Below, in pieces: positions 3,501 to 22,631 of a DNA stretch of 22,631 nucleotides; positions within the stretch are counted from its first letter, which is position 1, and the number at the start of each line of letters is the position of its first letter. The translations under genes and the position numbers were made by a program. The stretch covers positions 737,480-760,110 of the forward strand of contig NZ_OCTU01000001.1 in assembly GCF_900232945.1 (NCBI RefSeq), in the 5' to 3' direction. Origin of the DNA: Urinicoccus timonensis (GTDB taxonomy: Bacteria; Bacillota; Clostridia; Tissierellales; Peptoniphilaceae). The notes under the pieces are model-generated. The model was not told the origin of the DNA. It was given only the letters and a program-made list of their open reading frames with translations, and made no database searches.

Positions 3501-6500
3501 CTTTTCTGAATAGGCATTTTCTTTATCTTGTGCAATAATCCGAACCTTTGCTAAGAGAGGATTTACTTTTGTCCTTGCTTCCTTAATGGCTGCGTCTAAA
3601 TCTCTCGTGGCAGCTTCAATTTTTTCTTCTGTTTTTCCTTGATCCCTAAGGGTTTCTTTAGCTTTAGTAATCTCCCTTTGAAGGCTGTCCTTGCTTCCTT
3701 GGGGATATTGGCCTGGAGCCGGTCCCTCAACCATTTCTCCTAGAAGGGCTTCTCCTTCTTGGATTTTCTTGTCCAAGGCTTCTGTGGAAACTGCTGTTCC
3801 CTTAACAATTACCTTGACTTCAACAGGTTGCTTGTATAGTCTTTGCAGGAGTTGGTTTTCTGGATGCTTTTCTGCGGAATCTTTATACTGTGCACTGGAA
3901 AGAAGGGTGCTAATTGTTACTTCTTGGGCAGATTCTTGAGGATTTACTAGTAAATTCTCATGGCTTATAATGGCTGGATTGGAAGATTTAAAGCGCCTGT
4001 AGCCCAGAGATTCCATTTGGCTGCTGGAAAGAAAGAAATCAGCTATGATCCCTTTACCGGTCTTGTCATTTGCCTTGTAAATCCAAATCGGCTTTCCATT
4101 TTCATCCAAGTTCATTTCTTCAAAGGCATGGAGATCTTTGGTCACATGGTCCTTATCTTTATTTTGGCCATCGTTAATACCATCAAAGAAATGCTTCTTG
4201 GCTAAATCCATCATCTTAAGTTCAGTAGCCAGTTCTTCTTCTGTTACAGGTTTGATTGTAAAGGGAATTTTTTTCTCGACAGAAAGACCATCTCGGCTTA
4301 TCTTTACAATGAGATTTCCTGTTAAGTCTTTAGCCTTTGCAAATCGATCTACATTTGCCTTGTATCCATTGATTGTTACAGCTGGTGTGTCCGTAGCAAC
4401 TGTAATTTCCCCACTCTTAAATACATTTTCCCCTTGGTCATCTGTAATTCTTGTATAGCGAAGAAGTTGTAAATCTCCCAACACTTGATTGAAGTCTACT
4501 TTAGACCCATCTTTAGAATATTTAATATTCTCAGGAAGATAATACTTGTCTAGTAAGGCTTTTAAACCCTCTTCTGTGGTAGCTTCTTCTCCTGTCCCCT
4601 TTACAGTAATGGTATATTCTTTTGTCTGCTTTTGGAAATCTTCCGGCTTTTCAAGCCTACCTGTATTGTGTAGTACACTATCATTTGCAATGAATGTGGC
4701 AGTAAGCTTTACCTTTGTATCTTCCTTTGGTTGGGTAAAAGCGAAGTTTACCTTATTGTCAAAGTCAGGGCCTGAAACCTTGAAAATTTCTTCATGGTCT
4801 GTAGACCAGTTCATCTTGGACCAGGAAGTACGGGCATGCCCTGTAGTATACACAGGTAATTTAAAGGACTTTTCAATCCCATCTGGATTGACCCCTGCCC
4901 CTAAAGCCTTTTTAAAGTCAAAGTTATTTGCTTCTTCTTTGATTTTCCCATTGAAGTAGTCTTGATCCCATGCAATCATGGCACGCATGTCTATGGGTTC
5001 AGATAAGGCTTCTCCTAATTTGAATTGAATCTTGAAACTAATATTTTCAAAGTTCATTCCATAGGGGTTCAGCTCTTCCCTCTTGACATATTCAAGACTA
5101 CCATCTGTTTTAACATAGTTCTTTTCATCTACACTGGCAATAACCGGTTCAATATTTTCCACATCTACACCGGATAACATGCTTAATCGTTCTTTAATCA
5201 GTGGAAGAACATTTTTATTCTCTTGAAATTTTGGCCAAAGCGTATTACTTGCTTGGAAATTATCCCTAAAGGCTTGGGCAACCTTATCAACCTTTTCCTT
5301 GTTTTGGTCTACAACAGGCTCTTTTTCTAACTCTACTTCTAGTGTCTTATTTTCATCAGTTACTGTGAAGTCTTGAACTTTTTCCAGGTAGCCTTCGGCT
5401 GTCACCTTAAGTGTGTAGTCTCCTGGAAGGAGTTTATATACTCCTTCCGGTGTTTTTCCAAAAACTTCTTGGCTGTCTTTTTTCGTTACCACTATTTGAA
5501 GCTTTTCAATATCACTTGGAAGAACCTTCACACTTACATCGTAGCCGGCCTTCTTTGTTCCTTTTTGGGCCTGGTAGTTATTAATGCTTTCCTTTAAGGC
5601 TGCTTTAGCCCTATCCACATCTTCCTTGTTTAAGGATGCTGGGTTGTCCCCACTAAACAAGTTTTCTAAGTCTTTTACTGCTTTTTTATAGTTTTGGTCT
5701 ACTTCTGGAGTAACCCATGTTTGACTTGGATCAACGTCCTTTCCATCTTCACTAAGGACATCTGCCTTAATAATGGTCTTGGCAAGACTTGCAGCATCTT
5801 TACCAAATGGATCGTCTGTCCTATTGTGATTTGACAATCCAATGTTTGATGGTCGACCCGTTTTGCCGGAGGAGTCATAATAGGTTATGCCAGGGAAATC
5901 CGTTACCTCTTCAGCACTTGTATCAACGATGCTTCCTCCGCCAATACCCAAAATTTTTGGTTTTCCTGGAGCCGCAGAATCTTTAATTAGATAGAAGTTT
6001 TCTGTGATTTGATTGTATTTATTTAGGGAGTTCATATAGCCAATAGCTCCGGCTACATTTTCTGCCCCCCCTACCTTGCCTAAAAATAGGTTTCCTTGAA
6101 TCTTGCCAATACCATTTTCCCAAGCTTGCTTTTGATTAGTTTCGCCACCAAAAAGTCCTCCAACCTTATTTTTGCCTTCTACTTCTCCTATAACCAAGGA
6201 GTTGGTAATGGACACGCTTGGTGTATTGGCTGATGGGCCAAAGCTTCCGCCATCATATCCAGCTCCAACAAGCCCACCTACAAAATCTCCTGTTCCAATG
6301 ACACTTCCATGGAAAATAGAGTCCTCAACACTAAAGGGCCCCATAGACTGTCCCTTAGCACCTACTAGGCCGCCTACATATTTTGTTCCATAGACTGTAG
6401 CGTAGCTAATGGAGTTTTTAATGGTCCCATTAAAATCCCCTGCAAAAGACCCAATCTTTTCTTGGTCTTTCTTATAGCCTATAATAACTTCCTTTTCTAT

Positions 6501-8510
6501 CTTACAGTTGCTAATGTTTACAACGTTAGAGCCGGAAGCATAGCCTCCTAAAAATCCTGATTTTAAGATTTTACTTCCTGCCTTGATTGTTACATTGTCA
6601 ATATCAATAGCTGGAGCTCCATAATCTCCTACAGAATAATTGTCCACTAGCCCATAGCCATTGATTTCTGGACCATAAATATTCAGGTTTTCTACTTTTG
6701 CATAGGACACATTGCCTAATAATGGCTTTCCACCCTTGGCCACTGTCAGAGTGTGGTTGTCCCCATTAATATTTCCGGCAAAGTAATTGTTTTTTGGATG
6801 CCTTCCTAGGGGTAGCCAAGCTTTTGGAAGTTCCAGGTCCGTTGTTAGTTTAAGAAACTTATCTTTATAGGATTTTTGATCTACGTTGACATCTTTTTGT
6901 AGTCGATTTAAATCCTCTAAGCTCTTGATTAAATAGGGGTTTTCTTCAGTCCCTTCCCCTTCCCAAGTCGCTTCTTTCACAGTAAAGTTTACTGTGTATT
7001 CTTTTGTCTTATCACTATTTTTTGCTTTAATAAGAACTTTTCCCTGTCCCGGTAATTTTGTCGGTTGGGTGATTTCCACTTGGGAACTTTCATGCACAGG
7101 GCTTGCCTTTAAAGTAGGGAGGTCTACTGTTCCGGCTGGTAGTTCTACGGTATATTCCGTCTTTCCCTCTTCAAGGGGAATTGCTTGGTCGTTATAGCTT
7201 AGGGTCTTTAAGTCTACAATATTCTCAGGATCTTCTAGGCTAAAGTGCACATTATACTCTTTAATTGTCGTCCCATTGGGAGCAGTCACCTTAACAAGGG
7301 CAGACCCGGGCAAGCTACTTGCTTGTGTAAGGGCCACACTTGCCGTATCTTCCATGGCTTCTGCCGCTACTTGGGGAACTTGACTTGTTCCTGCCGGCAA
7401 TTTTATATCATAAGAAGTTTGCCCATCTACTAGATCAATGGTCTTCCCATCATAGCTTAAGCTTTTAAGGTTGGCATTATCTGATAGCTTCCCTGTTACA
7501 TGGACTTCCATAAAGGGCATAGTCGTACGGAATAGACCATTTTCGCCAATATGTTTTGCAGATACCGTATGTCTACCGGGGTCTACAAGGACAATTTGGG
7601 CCTTTCCCTCTGCATTGGTTTTGACCACTTGGCCATCTTTTTTATATTCCTTTCCATCTACATAGATGGTGGCGCCTTGGTACTTACCTGTTGTTGTCTT
7701 GCCACCCATTGTTTCATAATGGGAATAGGATAGGTCAAGGTCTAAAGGCTTTCCTGCTTCTACTGTGGCTTCTTTTTTATCAAACCAGGTGTAGTAGTTA
7801 TTGGTATAGTCTTCAACAAAGAAATAACGGATATAATCCTGGTCTAGGGCCGGAGCTTCCTTTACTCCATAACCGGAGTAGAAGTAGTTGATGTAATACA
7901 TCCATCCAGAACCATCCCCTGCTTCCCTTTTTGCCTTTAGAGCAAACATTTTTTCAATATAACCCTTATTTACTTGTTCTCTGAAGTCTTCTGTAAGTTC
8001 CTTAGGTGTCTTGTCTTCCATGACCTTGATTAAGGCATTGGCTGGTGTTGCATACCGCTTATTTATAGGATATCCCTTTGCATCCTGAATTTCTAGGTCT
8101 TGGCTTGTAATGGTTACCTTGGTGGGTTCAATGATTTGGTCTTTATAGCCTTTTTTTCCGTTATAGCGTTCATCCCCTACCACAGATAGGGTTACTTCAA
8201 CCTGGTCTCCATATTCTACGGTAAAATTTTCATCCCTAAATATGGGGGCTGATGGGTTCTTTTTATTTCCATCTTCGTCTGTTATTGCTGTGATGATTTG
8301 TCCTGGTCCCGGTTTTATTTCTTGAGGGATTTGTGCCGAAGCCCCTTCCTCCACCTCTTGTGGCTTAGAGCTTAATCCATCTGCGTCTGTAAAAGTGACC
8401 CTATATTTTGGCTTTGCCGGCTGTGCTTCCCCATAAATGGGGAGAGGACCTGCCGTTACCATTAAAAGAAAAGCCAAAAATAAGGATACCACTCTTTTCC
8501 AGTTTTTCAT
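1..8510 (-). CDS. Giant secreted multidomain surface protein with three DUF4430-like domains (3' end outside window)
   Basis: The reading frame stays open from the ATG at 8510 to the window edge, giving at least 2,836 residues with no stop seen. The start has an AAAGGAG site about 10 nt upstream. Residues 1-27 form a signal peptide. By eye, the modules in order are: DUF4430-like about 150-237 (GSGWMYYIN motif); two cadherin-like beta-sandwich repeats about 340-420 and 430-510; a GLUG-rich beta-helix about 520-850 (repeated GGLVG); a FIVAR-like helical unit about 900-985; a PEGA-like repeat; Ig-like modules; DUF4430-like about 1690-1790; a BspA-type leucine-rich region about 1915-2085; a MucBP-like segment; DUF4430-like about 2430-2555 (GGWMYYVN); then FIVAR repeats to the edge. 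DUF4430 is the family of the transcobalamin and intrinsic factor C-terminal domain. The gene begins 23 nt after the preceding gene, so it is co-transcribed under the cobalamin riboswitch. A C-terminal SLH anchor is expected but lies outside the window. B12 binding is inferred. Confidence 0.9.
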   Translation of the reverse strand, partial: MKNWKRVVSLFLAFLLMVTAGPLPIYGEAQPAKPKYRVTFTDADGLSSKPQEVEEGASAQIPQEIKPGPGQIITAITDEDGNKKNPSAPIFRDENFTVEYGDQVEVTLSVVGDERYNGKKGYKDQIIEPTKVTITSQDLEIQDAKGYPINKRYATPANALIKVMEDKTPKELTEDFREQVNKGYIEKMFALKAKREAGDGSGWMYYINYFYSGYGVKEAPALDQDYIRYFFVEDYTNNYYTWFDKKEATVEAGKPLDLDLSYSHYETMGGKTTTGKYQGATIYVDGKEYKKDGQVVKTNAEGKAQIVLVDPGRHTVSAKHIGENGLFRTTMPFMEVHVTGKLSDNANLKSLSYDGKTIDLVDGQTSYDIKLPAGTSQVPQVAAEAMEDTASVALTQASSLPGSALVKVTAPNGTTIKEYNVHFSLEDPENIVDLKTLSYNDQAIPLEEGKTEYTVELPAGTVDLPTLKASPVHESSQVEITQPTKLPGQGKVLIKAKNSDKTKEYTVNFTVKEATWEGEGTEENPYLIKSLEDLNRLQKDVNVDQKSYKDKFLKLTTDLELPKAWLPLGRHPKNNYFAGNINGDNHTLTVAKGGKPLLGNVSYAKVENLNIYGPEINGYGLVDNYSVGDYGAPAIDIDNVTIKAGSKILKSGFLGGYASGSNVVNISNCKIEKEVIIGYKKDQEKIGSFAGDFNGTIKNSISYATVYGTKYVGGLVGAKGQSMGPFSVEDSIFHGSVIGTGDFVGGLVGAGYDGGSFGPSANTPSVSITNSLVIGEVEGKNKVGGLFGGETNQKQAWENGIGKIQGNLFLGKVGGAENVAGAIGYMNSLNKYNQITENFYLIKDSAAPGKPKILGIGGGSIVDTSAEEVTDFPGITYYDSSGKTGRPSNIGLSNHNRTDDPFGKDAASLAKTIIKADVLSEDGKDVDPSQTWVTPEVDQNYKKAVKDLENLFSGDNPASLNKEDVDRAKAALKESINNYQAQKGTKKAGYDVSVKVLPSDIEKLQIVVTKKDSQEVFGKTPEGVYKLLPGDYTLKVTAEGYLEKVQDFTVTDENKTLEVELEKEPVVDQNKEKVDKVAQAFRDNFQASNTLWPKFQENKNVLPLIKERLSMLSGVDVENIEPVIASVDEKNYVKTDGSLEYVKREELNPYGMNFENISFKIQFKLGEALSEPIDMRAMIAWDQDYFNGKIKEEANNFDFKKALGAGVNPDGIEKSFKLPVYTTGHARTSWSKMNWSTDHEEIFKVSGPDFDNKVNFAFTQPKEDTKVKLTATFIANDSVLHNTGRLEKPEDFQKQTKEYTITVKGTGEEATTEEGLKALLDKYYLPENIKYSKDGSKVDFNQVLGDLQLLRYTRITDDQGENVFKSGEITVATDTPAVTINGYKANVDRFAKAKDLTGNLIVKISRDGLSVEKKIPFTIKPVTEEELATELKMMDLAKKHFFDGINDGQNKDKDHVTKDLHAFEEMNLDENGKPIWIYKANDKTGKGIIADFFLSSSQMESLGYRRFKSSNPAIISHENLLVNPQESAQEVTISTLLSSAQYKDSAEKHPENQLLQRLYKQPVEVKVIVKGTAVSTEALDKKIQEGEALLGEMVEGPAPGQYPQGSKDSLQREITKAKETLRDQGKTEEKIEAATRDLDAAIKEARTKVNPLLAKVRIIAQDKENAYSEKSGFYDVQSSAAEKYGYVKPEGYKNKVTVADALASYHRAVYGEDFEKNPKKYLVINNSGFISKIFGVETTNVGYKVNNKMPTYPDKPDMGSLANDSLLKEGDQLNIFRYFGGYNENKYLYFDKVDYTGKAGESLNIKVLTEQYNTVSQKLEEVSVEKATVVVKKEDTVVAQGMTDGNGLASIQLAPDMKGDYDVTIGKVLTDAGQEGKFIAPYAALTVKEKEIEKYTGPFTFTKDEQKGEVTITGYKTLDVPVDLVIPDTIEGLPVTKIGKDAFKHGSYGNKVKDPLTSLKLPATIKEIGNMAFQGNAFEKIDLPASLEVLSGRAFAMNKNLKQVTFEDGIKIKQIPDAFYGNGLETITIPEGVEVLGKGAFQDGKLKTVTFPESLKQIDDSAFGLNEIKEITIPAGIEKFGATNRVTGVFFRNFKDKDESQPVTRLTKVYDLSGKATVENARAIVNPVSVTIKYIDQETGKEIQTSKTAVGRELKKVVKGKHPKYGFDTGELKEGDKHYLTDYIVSTDRVEYYTKFFTDVSANYYMANKDYTFEAEDIPGYQTPTSITKTLSGKTEEVIFEYTKQNEKKTLTLVGEGLTSEPQAGELAFGEEVTIKIQAPEHKKVKAFKVNDEDKTSELKGSPIEYNYTFKLKEDTKVEVTYDEVSYDQDLVLMDKDGKDSYQIGDSCNLQVLYRGQDLPLTNEDLQITSEPEDAIKVDKTKGMVTFIKSGDIKLLGNIQGKPDITGQMTIKVQPVKVKVRIEGPRETILEPTDLEITNLNLKQGYDYYTDVKFDKPVATLAAVAGAKVAGIDTKDKAVFDAGGNGGYISRIGNHVGGDSVTKADNMYGGWMYYVNNAYPLQAPGIGATVDNYVLKNGDDVNFWYCENYLFNSYVYFSQESYEAKTGQEIEIRLVQGERSPLGSQPTSLEGITILNNKEKLLDSNGQPYKTDSEGKVKIKFTEAKDYHLSAEKLQENEIPFADPNPEHVMQMAISRPYAKVHVLKGEEPANKEALKTALAQAEAMKKADATSEDGKDVDTGKTWVTPAVQTAFNQALEKAKAVNERTDANQDDVNQAAKALKDAMASYIPENGTKEVVAPVDKAKLKEALSQAEAMKKADATSEDGKDVDTGKTWVTPEVKATFDQALEKAKEVNERTDANQDEVNQAAKALEDAI

Positions 8511-8533
8511 GCCAGCTACTCTCCTTTCATCCA

Positions 8534-11500
8534 TTACTTATTCTCTTTACCTGTATCCATACGGTATAGGACTGTTGCTACTTCCGCTCTAGTTGACAGG
8601 TCTTTTGGCTTAAAGTTTCCTTCCGGAGTTCCATTTAAAATTCCTGCCAGATACATCTTTTCAATAGATTCCCTTGCCCATCCTGCAATTTGGCCTTGGT
8701 CTTTCAAATCTGCCTTTTGACTTTTCTTCAAATTAACCTTTTTATAGGTCAGGTAGTCATCCATCATCTTTGCCATTTCTTCTCGACTTATCTTCCGGTT
8801 GGGTTCAAAGTAGCCACTTCCTGTCCCTTGTGAAATCTTATTCTTCAAGGCCCACTCTACATGGGCAGCGTAGAAATCAGACGCCTTGATGTCTTTAAAG
8901 CTGGTATTTGTTGGATGATCTTTCACTCCATCCATCCGTCCCAAGATAGTAATCATCATACCCCGGGTCATATGGGTGTTTGGACCGAATTTTTTATTTC
9001 CAATCCCATAGAAATATCCCTTTTCTGTTACATAATCAATGGCTTTTTCTGCCCAGTGGCCATCCACATCTGTATAATGTTTGTTCCCAACACTTTCTTG
9101 GGCACCCAGCTTTTTCTTTTCTAGGATTTCTTTCTTTTCTGCTTCTGTTAATTCGTCCAGCTTTTTAAAAGTAGCTGTAATAATGTCTTTGTCTTTCACA
9201 TTGTCCACAGTCAGGGTATAGCTATCTACAATGCCAATGTTTCTTCTATCGATAAAAACACCTGTTAAGACATAGCCTGGATCTGGTTTAAAGGTTAGGG
9301 TAACAGGAACTGTCTTGGTTACCTTCACCCTTCCTGATGGGTTAATCATGCCACCTTGGGAGTTGCGAACGGTTACAAAAACCGGTTTAATCCCCGTTCC
9401 GTCATCATCTTCAATCCCTTCAACATAGCCGCCAATATCCTTACCTAAGTCACGAGTATATATCCATTCCACATAGTCTCCTGCCTTTATAGGGTGCAGG
9501 GAAGAGGAGTGGTTTGGAAAGACTCCATTGACTCGGTACATCCAGCCACTATAGGGTCCGCCATCAAATTCAGAAAGTCCTTCAATGGTGTTGACATAGA
9601 CCCCCTTATAAATCTTGTGGTAGTTATAGTTATAGGATAGGCCTGTTTTTTGTAAAATGGAAAAGGCGGTGTCCTTTCCTGGAATAATTTGATAGGCTGT
9701 CTTGGCCTTCATGGTCCATCCATTGGGGTGGATTCTTGGACCCGGTGGTACAATAACTGAAACATAGGCTGTGTTTTTGGGTTGTTGGTCAGGATTTAGG
9801 GGGTCTCCCGGTACAGGGGGTAGTTCTCTGTCCCTAACAAAAATATAAAAACTTCTTTCTAGCCCTAAATAAACAGCCTTAACTAGCTTTCGACCACTTG
9901 TTTCTGTATCGAAACCTTGTAGGTCAATAGATTCAGGCCCTACTCTTTTACTGGTTCTATCACTAAAATAGACAATTCCTTCTAAGTCACTTTTATCCAA
10001 GGCTTCTCCTACAAAGTAGACTGTCTTTGGATATCGAAGAAGCTCTAGGCGTATTGGTGTAACCACTGAAGCAAAACTTTTTGTTGGTTTCGGAAAACGA
10101 TAGATATTTTTCTTGTCCCGATAGGCAATTAAGGCTTGGTATGCCTGTTCCATTGCCTTCCCATTTAATTGAAAATTATCGGTGTAACCAAAGTAATCAT
10201 CAGCTGTTTTAAAAGAAAGAAGGCCATCTAAAACAGACTTGCCATTTTTTATAAACCGAGAATCTGTATGGGAATCAAGGCCTAAGTTTTGTAGGGCCAA
10301 AATTACCATGGCTGTTGAGTTTGCATTGGGTCCTGCCCCCCAGGCTTCATAGGCTCCAGCATGGTCCCCCGTCTCCGTTTGCATGGAAGACAGTTTACCT
10401 AGGGCTCTATCCACCGCCGTTTTTACCTTGTCTTGACCATAATAAGGGGCCAGAGCTTGGATTGCCATGGCGGTAATATCAACATCTGAAACACCCTGGT
10501 TGTTTAAATTCCATCCCCCATCATTTAGTTGGTTTTTAAGAATGTAGTCAATCACTTTTTCTCGAGTCCAGGTAGACCCTTGGGGAATGGGATATTGACC
10601 ACAATCATAGGCAATCAAGGCAAAGATATACCCATTTAAGGTGCCCAGTCCATCCCCATACTGGCCCTTTTCATACTTGGCAATTTCTTCAATAATATTC
10701 ACTACTCTTCCATCCGCCAAGGGGAATTTTTGGACATCATAGCCCAGGGCTGTCAAGGAAATGGTCACCCGCTCTAAGTCTGTAGACGAAATTTTTTCTT
10801 TCACAATTTTTTGTGCTGCTGTGATTAGGGCTACTTGGTCCACCTTATCATGGTGGCCCAGGAAAGATAGGGACATGGCCGCCCAGTCATCTGAAGACCC
10901 ACTATAGTAGTCCGTAATTTTCTCAATACTTTGTTTTATCACAGTATCCAAACTGCGATTAGGGTTTTTTACAGGAACTAAAATTTTAAACTCGAAAACC
11001 TTCTTTTGGTCTTTCGATGTTACTTTATAAAAGAAAAAGACAATATTTGAACCCTCGTCGTTGTCCCTTGTCACCTCTACCTTGATATTTGGGTTTGCCA
11101 TTTGAACATCTGCTTGAAGGTCTTTTAAGTTTTCTACAACAGGTGCGTCATCCTCGAATACTTGGTAAGCAAGTTTTGCTTTTTCTGTAGGATTGTCTAC
11201 AAACAAGGTCCGGGTCTGCTTATTTCCATCTAAAGTCCAAGAAATGCTGATTTTCTTGGGGGTGACAACATCATTTGCAAGTATTCTTGCTTCAAGATCT
11301 GCCTTTACTGGTCCGTCTTCTAGCTTTGCCACAAGTTCTTTTGCCGTGTTTACAGCCTTTAATATCTTTTTCTTGTCTTTACTTTCTAAGTTTTCCAAGG
11401 TTTCAACGGCTTCTCTAGCAGCCTTTACATCTTTTGTCTCTTCTTGAGGTGACTGTACCCCACTGGCTATCTTCTCTTGAGAGACTTCTAGCTTTTCGTC

Positions 11501-11689
11501 TTGCTGGTCTGGGGTTTTTTCTGTTTTTTCTTTTGCCTGGTTTTCTGTCTTCTTGCTACTTTCTACAAGGGTGTTTTCATTTTTTGCCCCAGTCAAAACT
11601 GCCTTGTCTTGGTTTTCAGCAAAAGAATGAAAAGGAACCGATGTAAACAAGACGAGAAGGGCCAGTATTAACGATACTTGTTTTTTCAT
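8534..11689 (-). CDS. SLH-anchored intrinsic-factor/transcobalamin-like protein: alpha/alpha-barrel plus DUF4430
   Basis: 1,051 residues. The start at 11689 is chosen because it has a perfect AGGAGG five bases upstream and opens directly into a signal peptide (1-24, MKKQVSLILA, ending SFA/EN). An in-frame ATG 14 codons earlier lacks both. Order: charged linker 25-85; helical segment 86-140; beta domain about 145-243; alpha/alpha-barrel about 255-530 with repeated helix-hairpin motifs (LNDGGWNLNNQGVSDVDITA, then YEAWGAGPNANSTAMVILAL); Ig-like about 540-620; DUF4430 about 655-747 (DTAFSILQKTG, SGWMYRVNGVFPN, AGDYVEWIY); a repeat-like beta domain about 768-843; three SLH repeats 871-1045. Barrel followed by DUF4430 is the order found in animal intrinsic factor and transcobalamin. 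The gene is second in a riboswitch-controlled operon. Corrinoid capture at the cell surface is my inference; a prenyltransferase-fold protein with another ligand is the alternative. Confidence 0.93.
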   Translation of the reverse strand: MKKQVSLILALLVLFTSVPFHSFAENQDKAVLTGAKNENTLVESSKKTENQAKEKTEKTPDQQDEKLEVSQEKIASGVQSPQEETKDVKAAREAVETLENLESKDKKKILKAVNTAKELVAKLEDGPVKADLEARILANDVVTPKKISISWTLDGNKQTRTLFVDNPTEKAKLAYQVFEDDAPVVENLKDLQADVQMANPNIKVEVTRDNDEGSNIVFFFYKVTSKDQKKVFEFKILVPVKNPNRSLDTVIKQSIEKITDYYSGSSDDWAAMSLSFLGHHDKVDQVALITAAQKIVKEKISSTDLERVTISLTALGYDVQKFPLADGRVVNIIEEIAKYEKGQYGDGLGTLNGYIFALIAYDCGQYPIPQGSTWTREKVIDYILKNQLNDGGWNLNNQGVSDVDITAMAIQALAPYYGQDKVKTAVDRALGKLSSMQTETGDHAGAYEAWGAGPNANSTAMVILALQNLGLDSHTDSRFIKNGKSVLDGLLSFKTADDYFGYTDNFQLNGKAMEQAYQALIAYRDKKNIYRFPKPTKSFASVVTPIRLELLRYPKTVYFVGEALDKSDLEGIVYFSDRTSKRVGPESIDLQGFDTETSGRKLVKAVYLGLERSFYIFVRDRELPPVPGDPLNPDQQPKNTAYVSVIVPPGPRIHPNGWTMKAKTAYQIIPGKDTAFSILQKTGLSYNYNYHKIYKGVYVNTIEGLSEFDGGPYSGWMYRVNGVFPNHSSSLHPIKAGDYVEWIYTRDLGKDIGGYVEGIEDDDGTGIKPVFVTVRNSQGGMINPSGRVKVTKTVPVTLTFKPDPGYVLTGVFIDRRNIGIVDSYTLTVDNVKDKDIITATFKKLDELTEAEKKEILEKKKLGAQESVGNKHYTDVDGHWAEKAIDYVTEKGYFYGIGNKKFGPNTHMTRGMMITILGRMDGVKDHPTNTSFKDIKASDFYAAHVEWALKNKISQGTGSGYFEPNRKISREEMAKMMDDYLTYKKVNLKKSQKADLKDQGQIAGWARESIEKMYLAGILNGTPEGNFKPKDLSTRAEVATVLYRMDTGKENK

Positions 11690-11694
11690 TTCTA

Positions 11695-11700
11695 CCTCCT
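11695..11700 (-). promoter_or_regulatory. Shine-Dalgarno site that fixes the start at 11689
   Basis: On the minus strand AGGAGG sits five bases before the ATG at 11689-11687. The longer in-frame start at 11731 has no such site and would put 14 non-hydrophobic residues in front of the signal peptide. Confidence 0.9.
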
Positions 11701-11710
11701 TACAGTGTAA

Positions 11711-11741
11711 AGGGGGCCTTAGAAAATCCAAGGCCCTTTTT
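11711..11741. other. Intercistronic stem-loop, terminator-like in plus orientation
   Basis: Seven perfect pairs (GGGCCTT 11714-11720 with AAGGCCC 11730-11736) close a nine-base loop. Read on the plus strand it is followed by five T (11737-11741), like an intrinsic terminator, but no gene points that way. In the minus-strand mRNA it is followed by CCTTTAC, a poor U-tract, and ends about 10 bases before the Shine-Dalgarno site. It may therefore stabilise a processed mRNA end or block antisense transcription. Confidence 0.6.
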
Positions 11742-11958
11742 ACTTTCTTATTTCACGACTCATTTCCTCCTAGTTGGAATGAATCTGCTACATACTTTCT
11801 ATATCAGCCTTTATCCCACCTCTTCCATGGTCCTATTCTCTCTTCTCATGTTTCCCTTGAACTGGTTTTGACTAAATTCTTCCTTATAAGAATAGATGGC
11901 CGCCATCAAATCCCTTATGGGAAAATTCTAAAGTTTCCATATCTTTTCTAGCCAATTC

Positions 11959-14900
11959 TTAGAATGCTTCTATTTTTGTAATGACTTGAGCAAATTCTGC
12001 CCGGGTAAAGGTCTTGTTTGGTGCAAAGTTCCCCTTGTCTTGTCCCTTAAAGATGCCGGCTTCTGTCATTTTTCTTACGGCTTCTTTGGCCCATGGGCTT
12101 ATTTGTTCTTGGTCTTTATAGGTTTGTCCTGGTTGCTTGCTTTTTAGTTTTCCTTGTTTTTCCAGGTATCTGGCAAGGATAGTAGCTACTTCTTCTCGTG
12201 TGATTTTTTGGTCTGGACTAAAGTGGTTTGCATCCGTGCCTTTTACAATGCCTTCTGCAATGGCCCAGTTGACATAGGCTTGGTAGTAGGATCCTTCTTG
12301 AATATCTACTTGTTTTGCCTTGGGGTACTGGCTTGGGTTGATCTTTGCCAGTCTTCCTAGGACGGTCACAAATTCTGCTCTTGTTGTGGTTTTATTGGGA
12401 GAGAAGGTTGTAGCGCTTGTCCCTTTAAAGTAGCCTTTGTTTGCAACTTCTTGGATGACTTTTTCTGCCCAGTGGCCTTGGATGTCTAGGAAGTGGTTTT
12501 GTGGTTGGGCTTGGACTTGTGGTTCTTTGTTTTCTTCTTTTACTTGGATTTTTTCTGGGGTTTTTTCAGGTTGACTTGTCCAAGCGAAGAAACCTGGGAA
12601 GCTAAGTCTTGGGCTTGGACTGGGGCTTGGCTTTTCTTTTTCTTCGTGGGGTGGATTGGGTCTGCCTGGTTCTACTGGTTTGCCTGGTTCTGCAGGTTGG
12701 CTTGCTTCTTTTGTTCCATTTTGTAGTTTGTAGTTTGCCATGGCTTCTTTTAAGTCTTGGATAGCTTGTTTGACTTCTTCTTGGTCTGCTCCTGGTTTTT
12801 GGTCTACTGTCTTTGCTTTTTCCAAGGCTTGGTCGAAAGCAGCTTTCACTTCTGGTGTGACCCAGGTCTTATCTTTGTCTACATTTTTCCCATCCGGGCT
12901 TGTTGTGTCTGCCTTCTTCATTGCTTCCGCTTGACTTAAGGCTTCTTTTAGCGGGCTCTTGTCTTCTGGAAGTTTTGCATCTCCTACAATAATCGTAAAT
13001 TCTAGAGCTTGAGCTCCTCCTGTTTGGTCATAGGGGATTCCCTTTACTTTGACAATCCCATCTTTATAGGCTGTTACCCCATGACTCGTTTTTTTAGGAA
13101 TATTGATATTTGTCGGATCATTAGTTACGCTATCCTTTATTTTTACGATTCCATCTTGATCAAAAGACCAGTAGAATCTTTTTTCAGATGCTTCTTGAGG
13201 GAGGGTTTCAATCTCAAGACTTAAATTATCTCCCTTCTTCATCCGAATAACATCTTCTTTAATACTTGCCTTCTTTAAGGGCTCTTTATAGGCAAATTCT
13301 ATTTCAACAATTTTTGAAATTTGGGGGTTGTCTTCACTGGTTACCTTAAATTTGGCTAGACCTGCTTTTTTCGGGACAATTCCATTTTTGTGAACTTCCA
13401 TAAATTCGGCAATGTCTGGTGTTAAGGCTTCCCAAGTTAGCCCTCTATTTGTAGCATTACTTGGCGTAAAAGTTTCCATATATTCATTTGCTGCAGGCCC
13501 TCTTTGGATGCCAACAAAATAATCTCCAAAAATTCCATTCCAAGCATGGATATAGGCTTTTTTCGGCACCCTGATATTAAAATCTTGAACTGCAACATGG
13601 GATGGTACTGCCGTGAAAGAAGCCTTGACCTTTTCATCTTCCTTTAAATAAATTTCATAGGTAATTGGCTCAGATGATATTTGGAAATCCCAATTTGGGG
13701 TAATTCTCTTTCCAAATTGTCCTCCTGTATTTCCTCCTTGTCCTGTTGCATCGTGGCTTAGGGCTTGATATGGGATGCTTTGGAAGTTTTGACTGCCCTT
13801 TCTTCGTCCTTGAACGACAATATGCTTGGGTGCACTTCCTTGCATTTGTATTGGATTCGTGGTAGAAACTTCCCTTCCATCTACCAATATTTTTAGTTCT
13901 TCAATATTTGAAGGTACTTGTTGGATTTTAAAGGTATAAGCTTTTCCATCTGCCATATTGATAACTTTTGCATCCATGGTTTTTGCCACTCTTGGATTAA
14001 AGCGACCATCTGTGCTAATCCAGTAGTGGGTCTTGCGAGCATATTCATCAAGTTTCATTTGCTCATTAGCTTGCCAGTCTGGATTGGAATTTTTCGCCTT
14101 TAATATGAATCGACCTTGGTCCAAGGCACTCAGTTGGAAGGTCTTATTGTCATCCATTAAGATTATTTCGCCTGAGTCTTTTTGGAAATAAACGCCATCT
14201 TTTAGCTGTTTTCCCTCTTTAAGCCCATCTGTAAACTTCTTTATACCTGTCTCTAGTTCCTGGATCATTGCATCTCCATCTGCCTTGCTAGCATCAGAAT
14301 TTTCTAATAATTTTTGGGCTTTTGTAAGAAGTTTATCCAGGGCTTCTTTATTGGCAGCAGTCGTAAATAATTGGTTGACAGGAACTTCTTGTGGGTCTTC
14401 CGCTACTTGGTAGGCTTGACTTTCCCTTTTCCCTTTTTCTAAGATGGCTTTTAATTTTGCTTGATCTACAGCATCTTTTGTTCCTGTTTGCATTGCCAAC
14501 TTAAAGCTTTCTATGGCTTTCTTTAAGGTCTCAACCATTTGGTTGACTTCTTCTTGCTTGGCATCTTCCCTTTTTTCAAGGGCTTCCCCTTGGGCAAGGA
14601 CTTGATTAAAGGCATCTAAAGTAGTTTGAGAAACAAATTTTACACCCTTTAAAAATTTAGCCGGGTCCTCGCCCACAGGTATGTTTTTCTTTGCTTCTTT
14701 AGCTTCTTGGATTGCCTCTTGCAGTTTGGCCTTATTTACAGGTACCTTTAAACCAGGTTTTTTCTGTCCTTTTAAGGTTTGAATTGCTTGGTCTAATTTT
14801 TCTATTTGCCGCTGAACATCTTCTTTGGTTGCTTGATTCTTCTCTACAAGAGCTTCTGCTTCTTTAATGGCACCTTTAAAGGCCTTACTTTCTTCTGGTG

Positions 14901-16944
14901 TAATATAGAAGTCTTTGGTCAAGACATCTTTTCCGTCTTGAGAAACGGAAAGTCTTGCCTCTTCTTTGAGCCCTTCTTTAATTTTTTCAATCAAAGGAGT
15001 CTTATCTACACTTTCTCCCCCTTCTTTAGGAATAGACCGAAAATCATAGATGAATTCCTTGTGGTCCATGCTCCAAAGAATAATTGACAGAGCTTGTTCT
15101 ACTCCCTTAAGGTCAAATCCTGTCTCGTTTTCATTTCTAGCTTCTGAAAACAACCCTCCAGGCACATCATAAGCCTTTAAAACATCCAGGAGGTTGTCTC
15201 CGGATTTTTGAAATTGTTCATCCATTAAAAGCTTAGGGTCCTTTTGGGCTAGACCCTTTAAAATGGCTCCTAGGTTCCCAATGCTCCCATCGGCCCAGTC
15301 ATTTTTAGTAAAGTCTCCATTGGCCAGTTGTTTGCCTGCTACTAATTTTATGGTTTCCTCTAGGGCCTTCTTTGCATTTTCAGCCAGTTCGCCATTTGGA
15401 TTTGTACGAACGATAGCTGCTAGGGCTCCCAGGGCATTGCCTGTATCCTCCTGCCAGTCTCCATAACTTTCCCAGAGCTTACTGGATCCATTTCTCTTGT
15501 TTAAAAGAGCTTCTATCAGTTCCTTGAGTCGTTCATCTTTCTTCGGTGTCTTGTAGTCGTCTGATGTCAGGGCATAGATGGCCGCTTCTATCTCATCAAC
15601 CCGTCGAAATTTATCCATTCGAAGACCCACGAGTTGGGCAACAAAATTTGTTTCCTTATAATTTTCTGGATCCTTTCCAAGGACCCGTAAGTTTAAAATG
15701 ACTTGGGCCAGGTCTTTTGCATCTCTGCGATTTTCATCCTGTCCTTTTTGTTGGTCTGCCAGTTGAAGAATTTTTTGCTCTGGAACTTGAATCTTATTTC
15801 GAACCATACCCGGATAGAGCATGGGAGATTGATCATCTGGTCTTTTCTTGGTCTTATCGCTACATTCTTTATACTTTCTTGCAAGCCAATCCTTGTAGGC
15901 CTCAACCCGGTTGTCCTTATCCTTGGCTTCTTGCTTATCAACTCCGCGAAAATCAAAGACTCCGCCCTTGCCTTTTACCATGCCTATATAGGAAAGCAGG
16001 GCTCGAAAACCTTGCTCTGTCGCCATCTCCTTGCCACCATCTTGTCCGATAATCCATGCAAAGCCATCCTTTATCGCATAGGCCTTTAAGCCATCAACTA
16101 AGGTCTTATTGTTTCTTACCATGTAGTCTTTGGTTAAAAGCCCTGGATCACAGGCAGCAACCCCGCCTAAAACCATTTCTAATGAGTTTGCATTTCCCGG
16201 ACTTTGTGTTAGATCTCCATTGGATAACATTTTGTTTCCTATGGCTTTGAAGGCCCTGTCCAGGCTCGTCTTAACCTCTGCTTCCCCATAATAAGGAGCC
16301 AAGGCATAAAGGGCAAAACCAGTAATGTCCCATGGAAGACTGTAGCCTTGCCATAAACCATCACTGCCTTGTGCTTGTAAAATTTTTTGCTTTAATTGTT
16401 CTGTTGCCGTGTTAAGGCTCGGTGAATTTGTATAATTATCTGATATTAAGGCATTTAAGGCAGGCCCCAGAGCATTGACATCCTTTCCAAAATCTGCACG
16501 ATTTGCCAAAAGTTCTACCAAGTTGACGCCGTAGTAGTTTTCTGGGTCATATCCCATACTCCGAATAGCTAAAATATTTTTGGTCAGGCTATTCACATCA
16601 CTGTTGGGCTTTTGTGTGTCCTCATCAAAAGCCTGTTTTTTAACCCATTGCTTTGTTCCTTCTGTGAAGGTGTTGGGCCCAAAGGTTCCCTTGATTTGTT
16701 CATATTTGGCCAGTTCTATAATGGCCCACCAGTCCTTGAGCTTGCCTTCCTTTTTTTGCTGGTCTTGGTAGATTTTAGCAATCTCATCTATCTTTGCATT
16801 AACCCATTGCTCATCGATAGATACAGTACTTTCTTTCAAGCTTTCTGTTCTTTCAGCTTCACTCTTGGCAAAGCTTGGAAAAGGCATACTGGTAGCCAGC
16901 ATGCAAATGACTAAAATCCGAACTAACCACTTCTTAAATTTCAT
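11959..16944 (-). CDS. SLH-anchored protein with two tandem alpha/alpha-barrel (intrinsic-factor alpha-domain-like) domains
   Basis: 1,661 residues, first gene below the cobalamin riboswitch, with AGGAGG five bases before the ATG. Signal peptide 1-26. Two related helical barrels occupy about 70-335 and 385-640. Both contain LGxDPENY-like and MGYDPENY motifs at the same relative place, then ALISDNY / ALTSDDY, a W-rich turn (LWQGYSLPWDITG / LWESYGDWQEDTG) and NGDLT / NGDFT, so they arose by duplication. FIVAR-like helical units follow at about 648-727, 735-815 and 825-910; beta-rich domains at 915-1120; Ig-like domains at about 1105-1220 and 1222-1320; another FIVAR at 1329-1410; a proline-rich linker; and three SLH repeats at 1484-1660. 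The barrels resemble the terpene-cyclase/prenyltransferase fold shared by the cobalamin-binding alpha domain of intrinsic factor. No DUF4430 was recognised here, unlike in the next two genes, which suggests they cooperate. Corrinoid binding is inferred from regulation and fold. Confidence 0.93.
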   Translation of the reverse strand: MKFKKWLVRILVICMLATSMPFPSFAKSEAERTESLKESTVSIDEQWVNAKIDEIAKIYQDQQKKEGKLKDWWAIIELAKYEQIKGTFGPNTFTEGTKQWVKKQAFDEDTQKPNSDVNSLTKNILAIRSMGYDPENYYGVNLVELLANRADFGKDVNALGPALNALISDNYTNSPSLNTATEQLKQKILQAQGSDGLWQGYSLPWDITGFALYALAPYYGEAEVKTSLDRAFKAIGNKMLSNGDLTQSPGNANSLEMVLGGVAACDPGLLTKDYMVRNNKTLVDGLKAYAIKDGFAWIIGQDGGKEMATEQGFRALLSYIGMVKGKGGVFDFRGVDKQEAKDKDNRVEAYKDWLARKYKECSDKTKKRPDDQSPMLYPGMVRNKIQVPEQKILQLADQQKGQDENRRDAKDLAQVILNLRVLGKDPENYKETNFVAQLVGLRMDKFRRVDEIEAAIYALTSDDYKTPKKDERLKELIEALLNKRNGSSKLWESYGDWQEDTGNALGALAAIVRTNPNGELAENAKKALEETIKLVAGKQLANGDFTKNDWADGSIGNLGAILKGLAQKDPKLLMDEQFQKSGDNLLDVLKAYDVPGGLFSEARNENETGFDLKGVEQALSIILWSMDHKEFIYDFRSIPKEGGESVDKTPLIEKIKEGLKEEARLSVSQDGKDVLTKDFYITPEESKAFKGAIKEAEALVEKNQATKEDVQRQIEKLDQAIQTLKGQKKPGLKVPVNKAKLQEAIQEAKEAKKNIPVGEDPAKFLKGVKFVSQTTLDAFNQVLAQGEALEKREDAKQEEVNQMVETLKKAIESFKLAMQTGTKDAVDQAKLKAILEKGKRESQAYQVAEDPQEVPVNQLFTTAANKEALDKLLTKAQKLLENSDASKADGDAMIQELETGIKKFTDGLKEGKQLKDGVYFQKDSGEIILMDDNKTFQLSALDQGRFILKAKNSNPDWQANEQMKLDEYARKTHYWISTDGRFNPRVAKTMDAKVINMADGKAYTFKIQQVPSNIEELKILVDGREVSTTNPIQMQGSAPKHIVVQGRRKGSQNFQSIPYQALSHDATGQGGNTGGQFGKRITPNWDFQISSEPITYEIYLKEDEKVKASFTAVPSHVAVQDFNIRVPKKAYIHAWNGIFGDYFVGIQRGPAANEYMETFTPSNATNRGLTWEALTPDIAEFMEVHKNGIVPKKAGLAKFKVTSEDNPQISKIVEIEFAYKEPLKKASIKEDVIRMKKGDNLSLEIETLPQEASEKRFYWSFDQDGIVKIKDSVTNDPTNINIPKKTSHGVTAYKDGIVKVKGIPYDQTGGAQALEFTIIVGDAKLPEDKSPLKEALSQAEAMKKADTTSPDGKNVDKDKTWVTPEVKAAFDQALEKAKTVDQKPGADQEEVKQAIQDLKEAMANYKLQNGTKEASQPAEPGKPVEPGRPNPPHEEKEKPSPSPSPRLSFPGFFAWTSQPEKTPEKIQVKEENKEPQVQAQPQNHFLDIQGHWAEKVIQEVANKGYFKGTSATTFSPNKTTTRAEFVTVLGRLAKINPSQYPKAKQVDIQEGSYYQAYVNWAIAEGIVKGTDANHFSPDQKITREEVATILARYLEKQGKLKSKQPGQTYKDQEQISPWAKEAVRKMTEAGIFKGQDKGNFAPNKTFTRAEFAQVITKIEAF
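12032..12127 (-). repeat. SLH-coding segment nearly identical to 22497-22592
   Basis: These 96 bases encode part of the last SLH repeat (YKDQEQISPWAKEAVRK and onward). They differ from 22497-22592, in the surface gene at the right edge, at only two positions that I could see. This is much closer than the rest of the two SLH regions and suggests recent duplication or conversion of the anchor. Confidence 0.85.
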
Positions 16945-16949
16945 CTGTG

Positions 16950-16955
16950 CCTCCT
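16950..16955 (-). promoter_or_regulatory. Shine-Dalgarno site of the first riboswitch-controlled gene
   Basis: AGGAGG on the minus strand lies five bases before the ATG at 16944. It is about 70 bases downstream of the riboswitch terminator and free of it, which favours transcriptional over translational control. Confidence 0.88.
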
Positions 16956-17024
16956 AGTAATTGATTTTAAAATGCAAACATCTTCCTTACATATCCACCC
17001 TGCTGATCTTCTTTTGAAGGCAAT

Positions 17025-17052
17025 AAAAAAGACATCAGCTTTCGCTAATGCC
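17025..17052 (-). terminator. Rho-independent terminator of the cobalamin riboswitch
   Basis: On the minus strand GGCATTAGC (17052-17044) pairs with GCTGATGTC (17039-17031) across a GAAA loop. All nine positions pair, two of them as G-U, and six U (17030-17025) follow. It lies about 55 bases after the riboswitch core and about 80 bases before the first gene, the usual place for an expression-platform terminator. Confidence 0.92.
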
Positions 17053-17107
17053 CGAATTTGCACTATTTTCCTATCACCTTTCTCTCTTGGTACCTCGCCA
17101 TAAAGAA

Positions 17108-17268
17108 GCTCCTATGCGCATGTCTTCTGACTCATGAATCTTCATCTATCCTGTCTTCCCATGAACTTTCACAGTGACTTCTTAGGATAAACTCATCATT
17201 TACAGCGGCGGGTCCGTCTTGGATTTTCACCAAGTTCCATCTTAGCTTACAATTTGTAAGAACACAAT
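17108..17268 (-). ncRNA. Cobalamin (B12) riboswitch
   Basis: Read on the minus strand, the conserved elements appear in order: GGAA (17238-17235), GGTGAAAATCC (17231-17221), ACGGACCCGCCGCTGTAA (17217-17200), GTCACTG as a variant of the GCCACTG box (17178-17172), GGGAAG (17160-17155) and GTCAGAAGACATGC (17131-17118), which corresponds to the B12-box AGCCAGAAGACCTGCC element. This order and spacing are diagnostic of the adenosylcobalamin-class aptamer. The 5' edge includes the perfect palindrome CTTACAAATTGTAAG (17260-17246), perhaps a peripheral stem. The aptamer lies between a good promoter and an intrinsic terminator, so B12 should switch transcription of the three surface-protein genes off. 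The outer ends are estimates. Confidence 0.95.
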
Positions 17269-17297
17269 AGGGTTAAATATTTAGTTTATATAACTTT

Positions 17298-17326
17298 ATT
17301 ATATCTTCAATTTTTTTAAATTGCAA
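17298..17326 (-). promoter_or_regulatory. Sigma-A-type promoter of the riboswitch operon
   Basis: The minus strand carries TTGCAA (17326-17321), a 17-base spacer and a perfect TATAAT (17303-17298). Transcription would start near 17291, about 25 bases before the aptamer. The surrounding DNA is very AT-rich. Confidence 0.85.
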
Positions 17327-17675: not shown

Positions 17676-20600
17676 TTACTTATTATCCAAGTTATATAAA
17701 ACTTGAGCCGCTTCTCCTCTAGTAAAGTTTTCTTTAGGAGCAAAATAATGGTTGTCTCGTCCGGATAATAAGCCTTCTTGACCCAGTTTATTTACAGCTT
17801 CTACTGCCCAAGAGGATATTTTCTTGTGATCTACATAAATAGTGAATTTTTGTCTTGTATAGGTTTTATTTTGTTTTTCCAGGTATCGATTGAGTATTGT
17901 GGCCATTTCTTCTCTTGTAATCCTTCGATTCGGTTCTACCTTTTGTCCTCCTACTCCTTGAAGGATACCTTCCGATAGGGCCCAGTTAATATAGGGCTCA
18001 TAATAGGCTCCTGGTTCCATATCAAGCATTCCACTCTTTGGATATTTGTTTGCATCAATTTTTGCCCTACGACCTAAAACGGTAACAAATTCTCCACGAG
18101 TGATGGGCCGATCTGGAGAAAAAGTTGTTTCACTTGTTCCAGTAAAGTAGCCTTGATCCATGACATACTTAATGACGTTTTTTGCCCAATGGTTTACAAG
18201 GTCTGTCATCTTATCAAAAGGACTTCCTGCTTTTACAGTGATATCGTCCTCTTTCTTTCCTTCTGTCCTTATATCTTGAATGGGTTGAATTATTGTTGGT
18301 TTTTGGGATGGCCTTGGCTTGCGGGGCCTAGTCGACGGACTTGGTTCTGTTGCCCTCTTTGTTCCCACACGAACAATTTCATCTACCGGCTTTATTGTTA
18401 CTTCACTAGAAAGTTCCTTTCTTGCCGTTTCTTTTCCATTTACATAGGTGACTTCTTCAGTAATTTTTCTTTCCCCGTTTTTCCCTTTTTGTACCAGTTG
18501 CTTGTAATCTTCATATTGGGAAGAATCTTTCACTACTTTCTTTTCAAAGGGTATAACCTCTGTTTTTACTTCTGTTCTTTTCTCAATTGTTTGGCGACCA
18601 TTTGTAGGTTGGTAGTCCTTGATAGCTTTCTCTAGGACCGTTGCAGCTTGGTTGACGTCGTCTTGGCTTGCATCAGTTTTTTCGTTAACTGCTTTTGCCT
18701 TCTTCAAGGCTTGATCGAAGGCGGTTTGGACTGCTGGGGTTACCCAGGTCTTGCCTGTGTCCACGTCTTTTCCATCTGCACTTGTTGTGTCTGCCTTCTT
18801 CATTGCTTCCGCTTGATCTAAGATTTCTTTTAGCTTCGCTTTATCTACAGGAAGGACAGCTTCTTTTTTCCCTTCTTGTGGTTTGTAAACTTTTATGGCA
18901 TCTTCGAGTGCTTTTGCTGCTTGGTTGACTTCGTCTTGGTTTGCATCAGTTCTTTCGTTAACTTCTTTTGCTTTTTCCAAGGCTTGGTCGAAGGTAGCTT
19001 TCACTTCTGGAGTAACCCAGGTCTTGCCTGTGTCCACGTCTTTTCCATCTGCACTTGTTGCATCTGCCTTCTTCATTGCTTCCGCCTGACTTAAGGCTTC
19101 TTTTAACTTCGCTTTATCTACAGGAAGGACAGCTTCTTTTTTCCCTTCTTGTGGTTTGTAAACTTTTATGGCATCTTCGAGTGCTTTTGCTGCTTGGTTG
19201 ACTTCGTCTTGGTTTGCATCAGTTCTTTCGTTAACTTCTTTTGCTTTTTCCAAGGCTTGGTCGAAGGTAGCTTTCACTTCTGGAGTAACCCAAGTCTTGC
19301 CTGTGTCCACGTCTTTTCCATCTTCACTCGTTGCATCTGCCTTCTTCATTGCTTCCGCTTGACTTAAGGCTTCTTTTAACTTCGCTTTATCTACAGGAAG
19401 GACAGCTTCTTTTTTCCCTTCTTGTGGTTTGTAAACTTTTATGGCATCTTCGAGTGCTTTTGCTGCTTGGTTGACTTCGTCTTGGTTTGCATCAGTTCTT
19501 TCGTTAACTTCTTTTGCTTTTTCCAAGGCTTGGTTGAAGGCTTCTTGAATTTCGGAGGTTACCCAAGTCTTATCCTTGTCGATATCTTTTCCGTCTGCAC
19601 TTGTTTCGTCTGCTTGTTTAACTTTTTCAGCCTTTTTAATTATTTCTTGTAAATCTTTTTTGTCTATTGGTTTCTTTAAATCTCCCTTAACCACGGTATA
19701 GATACCATCTTTGTCATAGTTAAAATACAGGGTCATTCGTTCTGCGTCTAAGGTAGATTCTACTTCTTCCCAGGTTCCTGTATCCTTATTATAATGCCCT
19801 ACCTTATATTGGTCTGCATCCTCTGCTTTAAATTGTCCTTGAACAAGTTTTAATCCCATTTTAATCGGACCAGACCCAATATTTGCTGTAAAGTCATACA
19901 AGGGCATTTCTGGTTTTGCTGTTCCTAAAGCTTGACTTAGACTTTCATCACCAGTGACTTCATCTGCCTTAAAACTAATTTCCTTTAAGTCAGGTGCCTT
20001 TAAACCTGCATTTCCTTCTTGAACTTCAAAGAACTTGCCTTGAATAATCAGGTTTTTATTACTTTGAGCCAATTTTTGACTGGCTGCTTGGTCTAATTTA
20101 ACAAACTCATCATAGGGTTTTTCTTTTGTCGTTCCTGAGGATAGGACTACCGAGTCATAGCTTAAGCTTAATGCCTTATCTAAATCATTGATTCTAGGAG
20201 TCTTTCCATAAACATTATCTACTACAGAATCTTCAGGATAAACCAGCAGGGGAACTTCTACAGACTTGTTATGGTAGCTGTATTTTAAGCGACCTACCCC
20301 TGTCCCTTTACCACTAGCGTCGACATAACCCTTCTCACTAAATCCAGGCTTCATGATAAGCTTATCTGGTGTTAAGCTTTCCCATTGAATGTCTTCCTTG
20401 CCTACCTCTATTTTTTCACCAAATTGATTTTGTACCAAGGGCTCCATAAAGACTATCCCTTGAGCTGTTATATTCTTTTTATCTCCTGGGTATTGGAAGC
20501 CAAGAATTTCTTGAATCTCAATAGGTTGTCCCACTGTAAAATGGTATTTGGCCTGAATACTTGGGTTTGCTTTACTACTTACAATAGCATCTACCTCTCC

Positions 20601-22426: not shown

Positions 22427-22631
22427 TTAGTCTACAATTTTATAAATCACTTGAGCAAATTCTGCCCGTGTTAAGGACTTCTTCGGTGCAAATTTTCCCT
22501 TGTCTTGTCCTTTAAAGATGCCGGCTTCTGTCATTTTTCTTACGGCTTCTTTGGCCCATGGGCTAATTTGTTCTTGGTCTTTATAGGTTTGTGCCTGGTT
22601 TTTATCTTCCAGTTTTCCTTGTTTTTCCAGG
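22427..22631 (-). CDS. C-terminal SLH repeats of a further surface protein (5' part outside window)
   Basis: The last 67 residues of a minus-strand gene, ending with TAA at 22427-22429. The sequence holds the end of one SLH repeat (LEKQGKLEDK) and a complete last one (QISPWAKEAVRK ... LTRAEFAQVI). It is nearly the same as the C-terminus of the tandem-barrel protein encoded at 11959-16944, so it is likely wall-anchored in the same way. It is 65 bases upstream of the G5/SLH gene with no terminator between them, so the two are probably one transcription unit. What the rest of the protein does cannot be said. Confidence 0.9.
   Translation of the reverse strand, partial: LEKQGKLEDKNQAQTYKDQEQISPWAKEAVRKMTEAGIFKGQDKGKFAPKKSLTRAEFAQVIYKIVD
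22497..22592 (-). repeat. SLH-coding segment nearly identical to 12032-12127
   Basis: Partner copy of the 96-base SLH segment in the tandem-barrel gene, with two differences seen (C/T near the LFKGQDK codons, and T/A near the ISPW codons). Confidence 0.85.

Follow-up and report, generated by a model that had tools for sequence, protein, structure and literature searches.

The window analysed here, a 22,631-nt stretch of DNA from Urinicoccus timonensis (contig NZ_OCTU01000001.1, positions 737,480 to 760,110), carries on its minus strand the end of an SLH-like gene followed by P0003, a cobalamin riboswitch, P0002, P0001 and P0004, and this locus is very probably a system for the capture of corrinoids at the cell surface. 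The reading is supported by the match of the predicted P0001 structure to the animal B12 carriers, by the class-wide linkage of DUF4430 (a domain of unknown function) to cobalamin riboswitches, by a contrast among SLH genes with and without B12-type modules, by an energy-coupling factor (ECF) transporter locus in relatives and by the fusion of a BtuH-type module. An initial annotation had proposed wall-displayed corrinoid-binding proteins under B12 control, and structure, linkage, ECF locus and BtuH fusion all agree with that proposal; its additional clause, that B12 might be taken from host carriers, found no support.

Predicted structure of P0001

Residues 250-780 of P0001 were modelled with AlphaFold2 from 60 sequences; the model had a mean predicted local distance difference test score (pLDDT) of 89.8 and a predicted template modelling score (pTM) of 0.71. 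The model was searched with Foldseek against 350,542 PDB chains, and the best 15 of the 984 matches (E 4e-10 to 4.5e-7) were all animal B12 carriers, namely transcobalamin, intrinsic factor and haptocorrin; prenyltransferases came next, from E 1.3e-5. In the Foldseek comparison, the model gave a template modelling score (TMt) of 0.67 with the beta domain of apo human transcobalamin (5no0) and of 0.69 with the bacterial structure 3u7z. As modelled, P0001 carries both domain folds of intrinsic factor and transcobalamin in the right order, and toroid and DUF4430 occur together in one exported protein, export being judged from a signal peptide recognised by eye, as for all proteins of the window. 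Matches of P0001 to squalene-cyclase and prenyltransferase profiles were under their cut-offs. The available passages of PMC4350170 state that TCN proteins carry DUF4430. In a precomputed Pfam list, the toroid-plus-DUF4430 homologues P0020-P0027 and P0139 also carry PF07678, which is presumably of thioester/complement type.

Linkage of DUF4430 to cobalamin riboswitches

The riboswitch of the window matched RF00174 with 109.8 bits (E 4.5e-27; gathering score 31.5) and is complete, covering model positions 1-189 of 189. Its 386-nt leader differs at 2 positions from that of the nearest relative, and folding of the leader retains a terminator-like hairpin (z -1.84 and -1.78). Judging from the class of switch and this hairpin, the riboswitch would exert ligand-dependent control over the genes downstream, presumably repression by adenosylcobalamin (AdoCbl).

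Among 41 relatives, 120 matches to RF00174 and 38 matches to PF14478 (DUF4430) were found, including 4 and 1, respectively, that were under the cut-off, and the stricter filter of the riboswitch search misses weak ones. As many as 30 of the 38 DUF4430 matches lay at most 10 kb downstream of a cobalamin riboswitch on the same strand, a distance that is no proof of one transcript, against 0.55 expected under uniform placement; none of the 38 had a riboswitch on the opposite strand within this distance. The survey also covered 48 further genomes of the class, namely those with at most 100 contigs among 72 further DUF4430-bearing genomes, with DUF4430 matches listed down to about E 6e-7. Among the matches listed, 69 of 106 lay within 10 kb downstream of a same-strand riboswitch (0.61 expected, again by uniform placement), and 2 of 106 had an opposite-strand riboswitch nearby. 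DUF4430 matches within one operon are not independent; counted per genome, linkage was found in 36 of the 46 genomes with listed matches and in 8 of 12 among the relatives, and of the 25 genomes among the 48 that have one riboswitch, 18 have it before DUF4430. Of 148 genomes sampled from the class, presumably Clostridia, 74 carry DUF4430.

A contrast within single genomes points in the same direction. Among the SLH genes listed for G001 (the nearest relative), G002 and G009, 14 of the 15 that contain a B12-type module begin close to a riboswitch, versus 3 of the 45 others; the B12-type open reading frames (ORFs) were assigned by hand, and reassigning ORF 574, which is the end of a broken frame, changes the counts to 13/14 versus 4/46. 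At L078 and L082, in genomes without a cobalamin riboswitch match, short DUF4430 proteins were observed, with frames of 158 and 151 aa. The gene rtpR encodes a B12-dependent ribonucleotide reductase. In L. rhamnosus, it is adjoined by a DUF4430 protein gene, LGG_02295, according to a part of PMC9963975.

The BtuH-type module of P0003

Residues 230-520 of P0003 have the fold of the BtuH H-domain. The contact residues Q and N are invariant in 49 of 49 aligned relatives; P0003 keeps the BtuH2 contacts Q333 and N399, whose targets in the nucleotide loop are its ribose and phosphate. In 6 of 11 genomes, a set including G110, which the riboswitch search left out, a single ORF holds the module and DUF4430, and the module stands together with both toroid and DUF4430 in 10 of 16 proteins, which were picked, not sampled. 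Pfam counts made by hand over 120 listed of 159 found gave 23 with SLH, 19 with DUF4430 and 14 with PF14717. At E up to 0.1, the last model, DUF4465 (BtuJ), matched none of the four proteins of the window, and it does match P0135 and P0147. Inspection by eye of the window and of the stretches read in G001 and G002 showed no btuB, and P0003 is SLH-anchored, so its module is called here a BtuH-type domain and not a BtuH orthologue.

The locus in the nearest relatives

P0001 has an identity of 97% in G001 and of 81% in G002. In G001, one strand carries in order kamDE, a riboswitch, three surface ORFs, a second riboswitch, P0002, P0001 and a 2438-aa protein combining DUF4430, a BtuH-type module and SLH, after which come a 138-aa protein, a membrane protein in the position of a T component, a double ABC ATPase, a toroid-SLH protein of 518 aa, a DUF4430 protein of 382 aa whose N terminus looks hydrophobic by eye, and an S-like protein. 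The ECF components are assigned with different strength: the T-component-like (CbiQ-like) protein by position and eye, with no family match; the two-domain ATPase (Pfam ABC_tran twice) as nearest to ECF ATPases, under the NCBIfam cut-off; and the S component by a weak match to PF12822 (30.9 bits, cut-off 30.7). CbiO-like ATPase and CbiQ-like genes were seen in G001 and G002, and the window ends before that stretch. The G002 locus resembles that of G001 up to the DUF4430 protein, is without P0002 and has one extra riboswitch before the ECF genes, while in G009 a set similar by eye stands behind a riboswitch.

The kamDE genes (lysine 5,6-aminomutase subunits; L122:2532-4915) lie directly upstream of the riboswitch and surface locus in G001, and one of them, the beta subunit, has a B12-binding domain; lysine 5,6-aminomutase is AdoCbl-dependent. 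Other riboswitches of G001 precede genes resembling btuFCD, cbi/cob genes and a NikA-like gene.

Further observations were made at these loci. The 138-aa protein (L121:14677-15093), between the surface and ECF genes, has no Pfam or NCBIfam match, and G002 has a 129-aa look-alike. A riboswitch in G002 precedes a 393-aa protein (L041:970-2151) of helical-repeat look by eye, without NCBIfam match, at the place taken by P0002 in the window. Right after the DUF4430 gene of G002 lies a 724-aa fusion (L124:7960-10134) of a NifH-like part, closest to CfbC, with a nitrogenase component 1-like part.

Organization of the window

The features of the window are as follows, in the order of transcription.

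22427..22630, minus strand: last 67 codons and stop of a further SLH-like gene, which lies upstream of P0003 (frame read; SLH by eye, like the end of P0002)
17676..22361, minus strand: P0003, 1561 aa, with BtuH-type module, FIVAR repeats, G5 and three SLH domains
20802..21674, minus strand: BtuH-type module of P0003, residues 230-520
17298..17326, minus strand: promoter-like TTGCAA-17-TATAAT before the aptamer
17100..17282, minus strand: cobalamin riboswitch aptamer, RF00174, E 4.5e-27
17030..17053, minus strand: terminator-like hairpin and T run (expression platform) after the aptamer
11959..16944, minus strand: P0002, 1661 aa, with two toroid units, FIVAR and three SLH domains (SLH E 3.5e-37)
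15955..16824, minus strand: first toroid unit of P0002, residues 41-330 (phmmer with the P0001 toroid, E 7e-16)
15010..15909, minus strand: second toroid unit of P0002, residues 346-645 (search with the first unit, E 1e-21)
8534..11731, minus strand: P0001, with signal peptide-like N terminus, toroid, Big_3, DUF4430 and three SLH domains
10097..10966, minus strand: alpha/alpha toroid of P0001, residues 256-545
9842..10036, minus strand: Big_3 domain of P0001, residues 566-630, between toroid and DUF4430 (E 1.6e-7)
9455..9673, minus strand: DUF4430 of P0001, transcobalamin-type beta-grasp (Pfam E 3.1e-14)
8552..9076, minus strand: three SLH domains of P0001, wall anchor (SLH E 1.1e-33)
3..8534, minus strand: P0004, 2844 aa or more, truncated by the window end, with DUF4430 domains, BspA leucine-rich repeats (LRR) and FIVAR
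7800..8249, minus strand: N-terminal DUF4430-like domain of P0004, residues 96-245 (resembles the C-terminal one weakly, E 2e-4)
3135..3554, minus strand: middle DUF4430-like domain of P0004, residues 1661-1800 (weak match, E 6e-4)
876..1064, minus strand: DUF4430 of P0004 found by Pfam, residues 2491-2553 (E 9.1e-8)

The complete cobalamin aptamer before a run of SLH proteins, flanked by promoter- and terminator-like sites, is as the initial annotation had described it, and the features that it placed at 8534..17326 are right; it had left out P0003 just upstream, with the second B12-type module. P0003, which lies upstream of the riboswitch, is not under its control within the window. P0001 is 1065 aa long from TTG and 1051 aa from the ATG at 11689, which is preceded by AAGGAGG and is likely the start. 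P0002 contains toroids and gave no DUF4430 match. P0004 overlaps the P0001 stop by 1 nt, and any anchor is outside the view as the gene is cut by the window end; the G001 orthologue of its N-terminal DUF4430-like domain scores 27.5 bits with PF14478, above the cut-off. The BspA-type LRR block of P0004 (E 1.8e-22) has the adhesin HupY/LrrG as its nearest NCBIfam, far under the cut-off.

Two pieces of a single G001 protein have their counterparts in P0003 and in the beginning of P0004, and elsewhere P0004 is similar to G002 and to another protein of G001. From these comparisons the surface-protein modules appear to have been shuffled, perhaps at FIVAR repeats, misassembly being the alternative.

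Contrary evidence and alternative explanations

Several observations weigh against surface corrinoid capture. Superposed on the carriers over both domains, the P0001 model gave a root-mean-square deviation (rmsd) of ~14 A and a TM of 0.32-0.37 by query, which means that the mutual placement of toroid and DUF4430 in the free model differs from that in the carriers. A Big_3 domain is inserted between toroid and DUF4430, and no closed cleft was seen in the model. At the sequence level, a profile of 60 P0001 homologues reached no animal carrier at E up to 1, and a DUF4430-only profile (24 sequences) ranked haptocorrin fourth at a non-significant E of 1.0; P0001 is not filed in the animal intrinsic factor/transcobalamin family. 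P0003 keeps 4 of the 8 B12 contact residues of BtuH2 (Q, N, F and H) and does not keep Y510, W511, W577 and L578. The linkage also has exceptions: 8 of 38 DUF4430 matches in the relatives and 37 of 106 among the matches listed for the class had no riboswitch within 10 kb upstream, the relatives G007 and G013 have DUF4430 but no riboswitch match, and a same-strand riboswitch lay within 10 kb 3' of DUF4430 in 10 of 38 and, among the matches listed, 7 of 106 cases, a pattern that loci with several riboswitches would give. In the region 7500-17500, promoter-like sites (18, versus 17.1 in shuffles) and terminator-like sites (17, versus 14.6) occur at chance level; the sole argument for both sites is their placement beside the aptamer. 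Finally, G001 encodes much of the B12 synthesis pathway, so that scavenging need not be vital.

The proteins might instead be general wall or S-layer adhesins, in which case the riboswitch would simply link B12 status to the make-up of the surface, and sugar, peptide or metal would be the ligand of toroid and DUF4430. This is improbable, given that among the matches listed other SLH genes start near a riboswitch in 3 of 45 cases versus 14 of 15 for those with B12-type modules, that the two-domain structure match ranks B12 carriers first, and that a BtuH-type module and ECF genes are also part of the locus in the relatives. The kept BtuH2 contacts Q333 and N399 reach the ribose and phosphate in the nucleotide loop, groups absent from cobinamide and earlier corrinoids, and complete cobalamin is the ligand of BtuH2 and of the animal homologues; both points argue against capture of cobalt or a corrin precursor, feeding the cell's own synthesis, rather than of finished cobamides. 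We regard this as less probable still, even with the cbi/cob genes of G001, its riboswitch before a NikA-like metal transporter and the statement, in the available passages of PMC1796856, that archaea with this domain are often B12 producers. That the main role would be pirating B12 from host carriers, for example haptocorrin or intrinsic factor, is extremely improbable: it has by way of analogy BtuG2, which strips B12 from intrinsic factor in vitro (PMC6977713, in the part available), but nothing in this analysis bears on carrier recognition.

Proposed mechanism and significance

For surface capture of corrinoids, the following course may be envisaged. At low levels of intracellular B12 coenzyme, the riboswitch would fail to terminate and the operon would be transcribed. 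P0001 would be exported and held on the wall by its SLH domains, and one corrinoid might be bound, in the manner of transcobalamin, between its modelled toroid and DUF4430 folds. P0002, with toroids only, and P0004, with DUF4430 only as far as seen, could be partner halves or extra sites, and the module of P0003 would add a BtuH-type corrinoid site. The cargo could then be handed to a split toroid-SLH/DUF4430 pair and an ECF transporter, as the gene order of the nearest relatives suggests. As the nearest relative may itself make B12, the benefit of such a system could lie in cost saved, in the recovery of corrinoids that have leaked out or in access to foreign cobamides.

We lean slightly towards the broader view that Bacillota possess a riboswitch-controlled wall-to-membrane corrinoid relay in which two B12-binding folds unrelated to each other, of intrinsic-factor type and BtuH type, often in one polypeptide, deliver to an ECF transporter, the intrinsic-factor type being whole, doubled or split into alpha and beta chains; it would be the Gram-positive counterpart of Bacteroides BtuBGH and a living relative of the stock behind the animal B12 carriers. 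The riboswitch linkage turns a prediction made in 2007 on DUF4430 into a directly testable function. The proteins of the locus may compete with other microbes, perhaps with the host, for B12, and toroid-DUF4430 proteins bear on the origin of the animal carriers.

Comparison with known systems

The idea of toroid-DUF4430 scavenging is itself known since 2007: in the available passages of Burroughs et al. (PMC1796856), B12 scavenging by toroid-SLBB (DUF4430) proteins was predicted on the surfaces of low-GC Gram-positives, and the animal B12 carriers were derived from that group. The proteins described there resemble those of the window in being secreted or surface-located in low-GC Gram-positives and in combining toroid, beta-grasp and FIVAR fusions; a second SLBB protein in the operon is likewise shared with the present locus, and the CbiO/CbiQ-like transporter genes reported nearby have candidate counterparts in G001 and G002. 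In contrast, the words 'riboswitch' and 'S-layer' have 0 occurrences in its text and no BtuH module is named in its passages; it describes the owners as usually without key enzymes of B12 synthesis, whereas much of that pathway is present in the genome nearest to the window. Surface cobamide acquisition is described as less known in Firmicutes than in Bacteroidetes in the available part of Putnam et al. 2022 (PMC8941943), which reports btuH homologues in three Firmicutes species, one near an ECF-like gene. The main text of PMC3766115, as far as available, counts 26 B12-transport orthologues under cobalamin riboswitches, and the list in its supplements may include DUF4430 genes. In the open-access literature, we found no description of riboswitch-DUF4430 linkage, SLH display or the joining of both B12-binding folds, which as far as found are new, and no experimental test of toroid-DUF4430 B12 scavenging.

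In animal transcobalamin, intrinsic factor and haptocorrin, as in P0001, an alpha/alpha toroid comes before a beta-grasp domain of one and the same type; unlike them, P0001 has Big_3 between the domains, a wall anchor and no significant sequence-profile match, the folds being compared by model. The locus of the nearest relative resembles ECF-type cobalamin transporters of the CbrT class in its ECF-like ATPase, S-like and T-like genes, the S component being weakly assigned, and differs from them in the accompanying wall and DUF4430 proteins. The P0003 module is comparable to BtuH2 and the H-domain of BtuG1 of Bacteroides thetaiotaomicron (PMC8941943 and PMC10404256, both in part); unlike BtuH2, an outer-membrane lipoprotein, P0003 has an SLH wall anchor and does not keep the equivalents of W577 and L578, and, unlike Bacteroides BtuH2 and BtuG1, the BtuH-type module is fused to DUF4430 in many SLH-bearing relatives.

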